In this document: piece by piece, positions 26,986 to 29,838 of the stretch
Layout of the letters: each line of letters starts with the position of its first letter
How positions within the stretch are numbered: position 1 is the first letter of the stretch
From: Bacteroidia bacterium
GTDB lineage: Bacteria > Bacteroidota > Bacteroidia > UKL13-3
Direction: 5' to 3'
Length of the DNA stretch: 64,000 nt
Assembly (NCBI GenBank): GCA_025454875.1
Contig: JALONP010000006.1
Location: 1-64,000, forward strand
Made by a program: the position numbers and the translations under genes
The notes under the pieces: model-generated
What the model was told of the DNA's origin: nothing
Databases searched by the model: none
What the model saw: the letters and a program-made list of their open reading frames with translations, nothing else

Positions 26986-28056
26986 ATGATTTACAAAGCC
27001 GATTGTCGACATTTTAAGGGGCATATACCCTGCAAACCTCATAAACAAAATGGGTATCATTGTGATGATTGTTCGGCCTATGAGCAAATATCGAAACGTA
27101 TTCTCATTATCAAACTCGGTGCAATTGGTGATGTAATTCGCACAACACCTCTGGTAGTTAAGTTTCGCGAAGAATTCCCAGGTTGTAAAATTACTTGGCT
27201 TACTTGGACTCCCGATATTTTACCTTCATCTCAAATTGATGAAATTTTAAAATGGGACCACAACAGTATTTTGTATGCCCAACACAGCGCTTGGGATATT
27301 GCAATTAACCTGGATAAAGAAAAGGAAGCGGGAGCATTGCTCAAAACGATTGATGCCAAAGAGAAGTTCGGCTTTGTATTAAAGGATAATGAAATTCAAC
27401 CTATCAATGAATTGGCTGTTCATAAATTTATGACCGGCATGTTTGATGACGTGAGCCAAGCCAACACCAAAAGTTATTTACAAGAAATTTTTGAAATATG
27501 TGGCCATACACATCAAGGTGAACCATACTTAATGGATACACATGATGAAAAGGGCTACACATGGAATTTGCCCAAAGGCAAAAAAATTATTGGGATGAAT
27601 ACGGGATGTGGAGGGCGTTGGACCACCCGCTTGTGGAGCATAGACAAATGGGTGGAGTTGGTAGCATTGGTGAAACAACAACATCCGGATGCCGAAGTAT
27701 TGTTATTGGGTGGTGAAGCAGAAGATGTGCGCAACAAAGAAATCCAACAGCGCAGTGGCGCAACCTACTTGGGTTATTTTAGTTTGTACGAATTTATCAA
27801 TTTGGTAAATCAGTGTGAGTTGGTGATTACACAGGTTACAATGGGTATGCATATTACCTTGGCTTTGGGTAAAAAAATTGTGTTGATGAACAATATTTTT
27901 AACAAACATGAATTTGATTTATTTGGCAAAGGAGAAATTGTGGCTCCCAATAAAGCGTGTAAATGTTTTTACCGCGGCAGTTGTGTAGATGGTGTGAGTT
28001 GCATGGAAGAATTACCTGCAGCTAAAATTGCTGAGGCTGTGGGAAGGTGGATGTAG
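26986..28056 (+). CDS. Glycosyltransferase family 9 (heptosyltransferase-like) with N-terminal Cys cluster
   Basis: A 356-residue GT9-type enzyme of the GT-B fold, probably acting in LPS or surface glycan assembly. Seen are the N-domain start ILIIKLGAIGDVIRTTPLV and the C-domain nucleotide-sugar region KKIIGMNTGCGGRWTTRLWSIDKWVELV and QVTMGMHITLALGKKIVLMN. Before the fold is a 30-residue Cys/His cluster (DCRHFKGHIPC, HCDDC) and near the end a second (CKCFYRGSC, SCMEEL), suggesting a bound metal. The acceptor is unknown. Confidence 0.85.
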   Translation: MIYKADCRHFKGHIPCKPHKQNGYHCDDCSAYEQISKRILIIKLGAIGDVIRTTPLVVKFREEFPGCKITWLTWTPDILPSSQIDEILKWDHNSILYAQHSAWDIAINLDKEKEAGALLKTIDAKEKFGFVLKDNEIQPINELAVHKFMTGMFDDVSQANTKSYLQEIFEICGHTHQGEPYLMDTHDEKGYTWNLPKGKKIIGMNTGCGGRWTTRLWSIDKWVELVALVKQQHPDAEVLLLGGEAEDVRNKEIQQRSGATYLGYFSLYEFINLVNQCELVITQVTMGMHITLALGKKIVLMNNIFNKHEFDLFGKGEIVAPNKACKCFYRGSCVDGVSCMEELPAAKIAEAVGRWM

Positions 28057-28185: not shown

Positions 28186-29283
28186 TTAATAGACAAGCTT
28201 GCCGATTTTACCTTTTGGACCCGCTAAAAATACGGATTTACCTTTTTTGGCCTTGCGAACTACGTGGAAGGGTTCGGAGGAAATTTTTGCATTAACCCAA
28301 AAATACCAATCCCGATTACATTTCGTTTTATTCATGTAAACACCTTGGGTTCCAACTGCTACATATTGTGTTTTAGATATCAACTCAATAGAGGATTTAT
28401 AATCTTGGTTCCCATATTGAGTTCTAACAATAATGCTGTCTTTATATAAGTCTCCGTATCCTTTGATAGTAACGCATGACGTGGGATTACTTGCACATGT
28501 ATCACATTTGTAATCTCCACCAACAATGAAGTAATTGTCTTTATTCAATTTAACAAATGAAAAGGCCCCCTGTCCATTATCGCCCTGTGGAAGTGGCAAG
28601 TTGAGAGATTCCCATTTTACTAAATGTCGAATAAATCTGGCTTTTGTCCCTCCTGTAACAATGCCATATTCATTTTTGCCCCAACACCTCAAACTTGTTC
28701 CACTTGCAGCAAAAACGGCTTCACCTTCCATGGCAATTGGTGTTTGCGAAGTATCTAATTCTTGCCACGTTTCGCCACCATCAGTGGTTTGCAGCAATAC
28801 AAAATGATTGTGAATAGGGTCTCCTACTAGCATACCACGTTTCTCATCCCAAAAATCCATGGCATCTAAAAAATAGGCCGAATCATTTTTGCGAAACACT
28901 TCTTTCCATGTTTCACCACCATCACTTGTTTTTAATATAAGTGCTGGAGTGCCGCTGCTCATTACAATAGCTCGTTTGGAATCAAATGCTTCAATATCCC
29001 TGAAATCACTTTTTTCGTACCCTTTGAGTTGTTTATACACAAATGTTTGGCCTCCATCAACGCTTCTCGCTATGGTTCCACGGCTACCACTTACCCAAAT
29101 GGTTTGATCATTTACAACACTCAATCCTCTAAAACTTGTTTTGTGCAAAACCACACCTTCACCTAATTGAAACGCGTTGCTATCAAGCACTTCAATTTTG
29201 TATTGTGCCCTAATTGTGAATGTAAAAGCAAAAACGAATAAGGTAAAAAAGCAGATTTGTTGCCAAAAATTATCTTTGCCCAT
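28186..29283 (-). CDS. Secreted Ycf48-like beta-propeller protein
   Basis: A 365-residue exported protein: a signal peptide (ICFFTLFVFAFTFTIRAQ) followed by repeated Asp-box/BNR-type blades (SVDGGQTF, TSDGGETW, TTDGGETW). It resembles photosystem-assembly factor Ycf48-like and sortilin-type propellers found widely as Bacteroidota secreted proteins of unknown role. A Cys pair lies in CDTCASNPTSC. No T9SS tail is seen. Its ATG abuts the start codon of the divergent lipoprotein gene. Confidence 0.78.
   Translation of the reverse strand: MGKDNFWQQICFFTLFVFAFTFTIRAQYKIEVLDSNAFQLGEGVVLHKTSFRGLSVVNDQTIWVSGSRGTIARSVDGGQTFVYKQLKGYEKSDFRDIEAFDSKRAIVMSSGTPALILKTSDGGETWKEVFRKNDSAYFLDAMDFWDEKRGMLVGDPIHNHFVLLQTTDGGETWQELDTSQTPIAMEGEAVFAASGTSLRCWGKNEYGIVTGGTKARFIRHLVKWESLNLPLPQGDNGQGAFSFVKLNKDNYFIVGGDYKCDTCASNPTSCVTIKGYGDLYKDSIIVRTQYGNQDYKSSIELISKTQYVAVGTQGVYMNKTKCNRDWYFWVNAKISSEPFHVVRKAKKGKSVFLAGPKGKIGKLVY
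29271..29278 (+). promoter_or_regulatory. -7 box TATCTTTG for the lipoprotein gene, inside the opposite gene
   Basis: Exact TAnnTTTG match five bases before the ATG at 29284, lying within codons 2-5 of the divergent gene. It is one arm of the palindrome centred on CATATG. No good -33 box. Confidence 0.55.
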
Positions 29284-29838
29284 ATGTTCAAATATATTGC
29301 TTTTGCCATTATCCTTTTAACATCTTGCACTGTTAACCAACAGCTAGGATACTTTGAAATGAAACCGTTTGTGCCCGTTGGGGTTAATAGGGTGAACCAG
29401 CCTTTGTATGTTCAATTCAGCGAGCGGGTAAGCGACCAATTTAATTGGAAACAAAGTGGTTTTACTTTTAATGTAACGCAGTTGCACAAAAGTTATTTGT
29501 ATGGAACAAGAATGGTATATGGTGATGTTTTTAGTGAAGTGCGTTTGTATCAACCAAATGATTATGGATTTATTTTATCTTACCAATTGCTAGAGCCTAA
29601 ATGGACATTTGAAGAATCCCTTTATACCGATAGTATCTCCATCTTAGAACCTGTATGCACAATTGCTTACAGCAGCAGTTTGTATCGCAACGAGTTGTTG
29701 ATGAACCAAACAAATGGTAGTGTGAGCGTTACCCAAAGCAGCCTTGGATCTTTTGCCAAACCTGATACCATCTTTAAGGAGGCCACCAAACAATGCTTGT
29801 CTAAAATAGCTGAATCGCACCTAAACCGTTTAAGGTGA
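29284..29838 (+). CDS. Hypothetical lipoprotein
   Basis: A 184-residue predicted lipoprotein (MFKYIAFAIILLTSC, cysteine at 15). The rest is unrecognised; it looks like a mixed beta protein with no motif I can name. I start at ATG 29284, not 29257, because the latter is a TTG in front of the -7 box. It may be functionally linked to the divergent Ycf48-like protein through the shared control region. Its stop touches that of the methyltransferase on the other strand. Confidence 0.65.
   Translation: MFKYIAFAIILLTSCTVNQQLGYFEMKPFVPVGVNRVNQPLYVQFSERVSDQFNWKQSGFTFNVTQLHKSYLYGTRMVYGDVFSEVRLYQPNDYGFILSYQLLEPKWTFEESLYTDSISILEPVCTIAYSSSLYRNELLMNQTNGSVSVTQSSLGSFAKPDTIFKEATKQCLSKIAESHLNRLR
29289..29296 (-). 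promoter_or_regulatory. -7 box TATATTTG for the Ycf48-like gene, inside the opposite gene
   Basis: Minus-strand TATATTTG is an exact TAnnTTTG match, five bases before the minus ATG at 29283 and within the first codons of the plus gene. It is the second arm of the CATATG-centred palindrome. Confidence 0.55.

Follow-up and report, generated by a model that had tools for sequence, protein, structure and literature searches.

Two divergent genes of a Bacteroidia bacterium (UKL13-3 lineage) start directly against each other, with their ATG codons adjoining in the hexamer CATATG at positions 29281–29286 of the window, i.e., the whole stretch of 64,000 nucleotides that has been analyzed (contig JALONP010000006.1). 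This arrangement is probably accounted for by overlapping, face-to-face, nearly leaderless housekeeping promoters of the Bacteroidota sigma-A type that serve two genes for exported proteins, without any dedicated switch or operator.

The Divergent Gene Pair

The sequence and its open reading frames (ORFs) have been re-read in the window. The minus-strand ORF (28186–29283) has its ATG at 29283–29281 and encodes an exported Ycf48-like/BNR beta-propeller protein of 365 aa with a probable signal peptide. The plus-strand ORF (29284–29838) opens with its ATG at 29284–29286 and encodes a putative lipoprotein of 184 aa (MFKYIAFAIILLTSC), for which no Pfam family and no NCBIfam match above the cut-off has been found. 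On the plus strand, TATCTTTG (29271–29278), the predicted −7 box of the plus gene, is separated from its ATG by five bases (29279–29283), and on the minus strand TATATTTG (29296–29289), the predicted −7 box of the minus gene, is likewise five bases (29288–29284) away from its own start. Each box lies within codons 2–5 of the opposite gene. The preliminary description of the locus had been right to the base about the touching start codons, and both the equal five-base distances and the position of each box inside the first codons of the other gene have been found again in the sequence. Two other start assignments have been rejected: TTG at 29257 for the plus gene, as the lipobox signal peptide begins at the ATG and the relatives start there, and a downstream start of the minus gene, as its codons through the end of the signal peptide contain no ATG, GTG, or TTG.

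Within the family, the minus gene is present in 54 of 62 genomes and the plus gene in 14 of 64; one other genome from the genus of the window (g1) has neither of them at the thresholds used. Our genome sample comprises the window and 60 further stretches (L001–L020 and L042–L081; 1.255 Mb), and the zero-gap layout occurs there in only one of 152 divergent pairs, as defined by mechanical ORF calls. A sample of 395 other Bacteroidota genomes has not yielded a single instance of the exact CATATG two-box pattern. As judged from these sequences, the touching form, with both transcripts predicted to be leaderless, is seen only in the species of the window.

Box Identity and Spacing in the Genome

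Both octamers match exactly the TAnnTTTG −7 box of Bacteroidota sigma-A (sigma-ABfr), and both fit the refined consensus TAHHTTTG of Bacteroidota sigma-A promoters (PMC6847099), so that they look like credible −7 elements. The distance to TANNTTTG has been scored for each of 958 ORFs that were called mechanically and begin with ATG. The box peaks 4–5 bases before the ATG, with 12 + 6 = 18 of the 958 genes compared to a background of ∼0.5–0.8 per position in reversed, complemented, and far-upstream controls; the five-base class (6 genes) includes both genes of the pair. Based on this peak, a leaderless spacing class exists in the genome, and each box taken alone is a credible promoter candidate that is unlikely to be a random match. 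A whole-genome count of any TANNTTTG-N5-ATG has given no excess over its reversed counterpart (59 vs. 69), since start codons are a minority among all ATGs; the enrichment emerges once the count is restricted to ORF starts. A second, broader excess of TANNTTTG has been observed ∼20–23 bases before ATG starts in the same sample, and the two peaks suggest two leader classes in this lineage, leaderless and short-leader.

The 150 bases that precede each start contain no other exact TAnnTTTG, and in the window neither promoter has a clear −33 TTTG/TTG element at standard spacing. The plus promoters of g2 relatives carry a TTTG at a distance of 18 bases before the box. Since promoters mapped in F. 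johnsoniae also show only a weak −33 element (PMC6847099), it is not regarded as required. Pairs of TANNTTTG boxes that face each other across 10 bases are scarcely more frequent than in the reversed-pattern control (126 vs. 113 sites, summed over 62 family genomes), and a facing-box architecture that recurs across the family has been rejected on these counts.

Conservation in Related Genomes

The divergent pair has been found in five g2 and two g10 genomes, with the junction TAAATTTG-ttgtt-ATGTT-CAAATATA in g2 and the junctions TACTTTTG-aagt-ATGAT-CAAATATA and TAATTTCG-gggc-GTGAT-CAAATATA in g10. The facing boxes have thus been kept 9–10 bases apart in three genera (gap of 10 in g2 and 9 in g10). 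In all seven aligned pairs the plus box stands 4–5 bases before the start amid diverging neighbouring bases, with one mismatch (TAATTTCG) in the g10 locus L027. The lipoprotein gene of this locus has a GTG four bases after TAATTTCG, a possible leaderless GTG start. The minus box TATATTTG is unchanged in every g2 and g10 pair, and TCAAATAT forms the longest invariant run in the aligned 120 bases.

The start of the minus gene behaves differently. In the paired relatives it is GTG (g2) or TTG (g10), 25–26 bases after its box, which predicts a leader of ∼20 bases; by this reckoning, the minus gene of these relatives is not leaderless, which counts against the explanation preferred here. An alignment with relatives, the check that had been proposed earlier, has therefore given a divided answer, in which the facing boxes persist but the minus start differs and lies 20–21 bases further from its box. 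In g2, 12 more bases separate the plus start from that part of the minus gene which is conserved, and on this comparison the touching ATGs are best read as a lineage-specific compaction, in which ∼12 bases fewer than in g2 bring the starts together. Minus-gene homologues at unrelated loci (L125/L037, L133, and L134; g3 and g6) have TAnnTTTG 4–5 bases before an ATG. A box at this distance seems to be a recurrent state for the Ycf48-like gene, and leaderless initiation would be recurrent with it.

The gene order indicates how the pair has arisen. The gene immediately before the plus gene is that of a glycosyltransferase-9 in g9 and in G015, one of the g2 genomes (L025, L028, and L029). In the window, where this gene occupies 26986–28056 on the plus strand, and in the other g2 genomes, the Ycf48-like gene lies between the glycosyltransferase-9 and lipoprotein genes in opposite orientation. 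Since the two outer genes are adjacent where the minus gene is missing, the divergent layout reflects that the minus gene has been either gained or lost here.

Proposed Promoter Mechanism

Transcription starts 4–5 bases after the box in F. johnsoniae (PMC6847099), and the box covers positions −12 to −5 in F. psychrophilum (PMC9723704). Transferring this Flavobacterium spacing to the window, both transcription start sites (TSSs) are predicted at 29283/29284, inside CATATG, with leaders of 0–1 base, which is consistent with the earlier claim that both transcripts are leaderless. The further claim that the promoters are not usable at the same time agrees with the geometry, which suggests that two polymerases could not occupy both at once. 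RNA polymerase bound to one promoter would cover the box of the other, and each elongating polymerase would cross the opposite promoter. Initiations would alternate and may interfere, possibly mildly, with no dedicated switch involved. The equal spacing of two consensus boxes and two ATGs yields the palindrome. We consider it unlikely that the overlapping leaderless promoters have been selected within each other's first codons as a regulator-free either/or element, allocating polymerase to one or the other exported protein by occlusion alone; if this were true, the M[FI]KY of the lipoprotein would be partly dictated by the promoter of its neighbour.

Alternative Explanations

The sterically overlapping boxes and the symmetry around CATATG are also what one may expect from a regulated either/or switch, operated by a dimeric regulator on a 26-base dyad operator or by promoter occlusion alone. 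Self-complementarity within this stretch extends to 20 of the 26 positions; the dyad reported earlier has thus been confirmed, but 'near-perfect' is generous at 10 of 13 pairs. Nine of the ten matching pairs are forced, six by the two TAnnTTTG boxes and three by ATG/ATG, and the dyad is therefore a consequence of the promoters and no independent evidence for an operator. Dyads of equal quality are common, as 357 of 1,254,700 26-mers in the genome sample reach at least 10 of 13 pairs (one per ∼3.5 kb), and among 26-mers centred on CATATG two of 307 reach this value. Between the boxes, the self-complementary positions decay from 6/10 here to 2/10, 2/9, and 0/9 in relatives, so that no operator core has been conserved, and a conserved dyad beyond the promoter boxes, which would mark a common operator, has not been found in them. 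Taking these counts into account, the operator dyad has been rejected together with the idea of a single operator for both genes, and the palindrome is, as far as sequence comparison can tell, a by-product of two boxes and two ATGs at equal spacing. A switch moreover needs feedback, and neither gene of the pair, a Ycf48-like propeller and a putative lipoprotein, encodes a recognisable regulator, for which reason simple overlapping promoters are favoured; a regulator could be encoded elsewhere in the genome. At the bidirectional promoters tested in E. coli, exclusion makes no difference as long as activity is basal, and repression arises only if one direction is strongly activated (PMC12825309). 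The mutually exclusive switch of the preliminary description is accordingly not upheld, and a regulated switch appears improbable.

The plus promoter alone might be real, with TATATTTG an accident of the M[FI]KY codons and the minus gene transcribed from elsewhere. The plus box is indeed kept at 4–5 bases amid diverging surroundings, M[FI]KY is a conserved protein sequence, and several minus-gene homologues elsewhere have no exact box. Against this stands the codon usage within the minus box, which spans plus codons 2–5 and is compatible with TTC or ATC, AAA, and TAT. TTC and ATC are the less common codons (0.25 and 0.18 at codons 2–7), yet they are kept in every pair. By our own arithmetic, the probability that three lineages all carry box-compatible codons is ∼0.001 if the lineages are independent (codon frequencies at codons 2–7) and ∼0.05 with shared ancestry (twofold codon identity of ∼0.6 between genera). 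Six plus homologues without an adjacent minus partner (L025, L028–L031, and L084) begin with different codons and have no box, and the minus strand offers no other exact box within 150 bases. These comparisons lend moderate support to the view that the minus box is constrained by more than its coding role, and a lone plus promoter is rather unlikely. Finally, two AT-rich box-like octamers might have met by chance and have no promoter function, given that TAHHTTTG occurs 913 times in ∼1.26 Mb and that gap-10 facing boxes are not enriched across the family. Two exact boxes at a spacing class that is enriched in the genome, kept in three genera, render this highly improbable.

Comparison With Known Systems

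Divergent genes with overlapping face-to-face promoters, at which polymerases exclude each other, are known from argE-argCBH and bioA-bioBFCD of E. coli. The locus described here resembles them in its divergent genes, in its facing and overlapping promoters, and in the mutual exclusion of polymerases that its geometry predicts; it differs in having zero intergenic space, promoters within each other's coding sequence, and no evident regulator or operator. In the symmetric −10 bidirectional promoters of Warman, Grainger, and colleagues, one shared −10 element lies between TSSs 7–25 bp apart (PMC12825309, PMC10268837). They likewise obtain divergent transcripts from one short stretch through symmetry, with polymerase exclusion, whereas the present boxes are two separate flanking elements (29271–29278 and 29289–29296) instead of a shared one, and the predicted TSSs are 0–1 bp apart.

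A box-to-TSS spacing of 4–5 bases has been documented in Bacteroidota, as have leaderless mRNAs, which make up a few per cent (PMC6847099, PMC9723704, PMC7366714); 5′ UTRs of less than 10 nt account for 3.7% in B. thetaiotaomicron (PMC7366714) and for 5.5% in F. psychrophilum (PMC9723704). The pair shares with them TAnnTTTG 4–5 bases from the ATG and a TSS that coincides with the start codon or adjoins it, and differs in that two genes stand head to head and in that the published TSSs have been mapped, whereas these are predicted. Divergent promoters that overlap face to face have been described before, and so have leaderless mRNAs in Bacteroidota; their combination with touching start codons is unusual, though seen at one locus. 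It offers a compact example from nature of two genes whose promoters, start codons, and coding sequences would fall within the same 26 bases, and it illustrates, for the judgement of findings made from sequence only, that a striking palindrome can stem from two consensus boxes and two ATGs. In a phylum whose mRNAs lack Shine-Dalgarno sequences, the locus would allow a clean test of leaderless translation and promoter interference.
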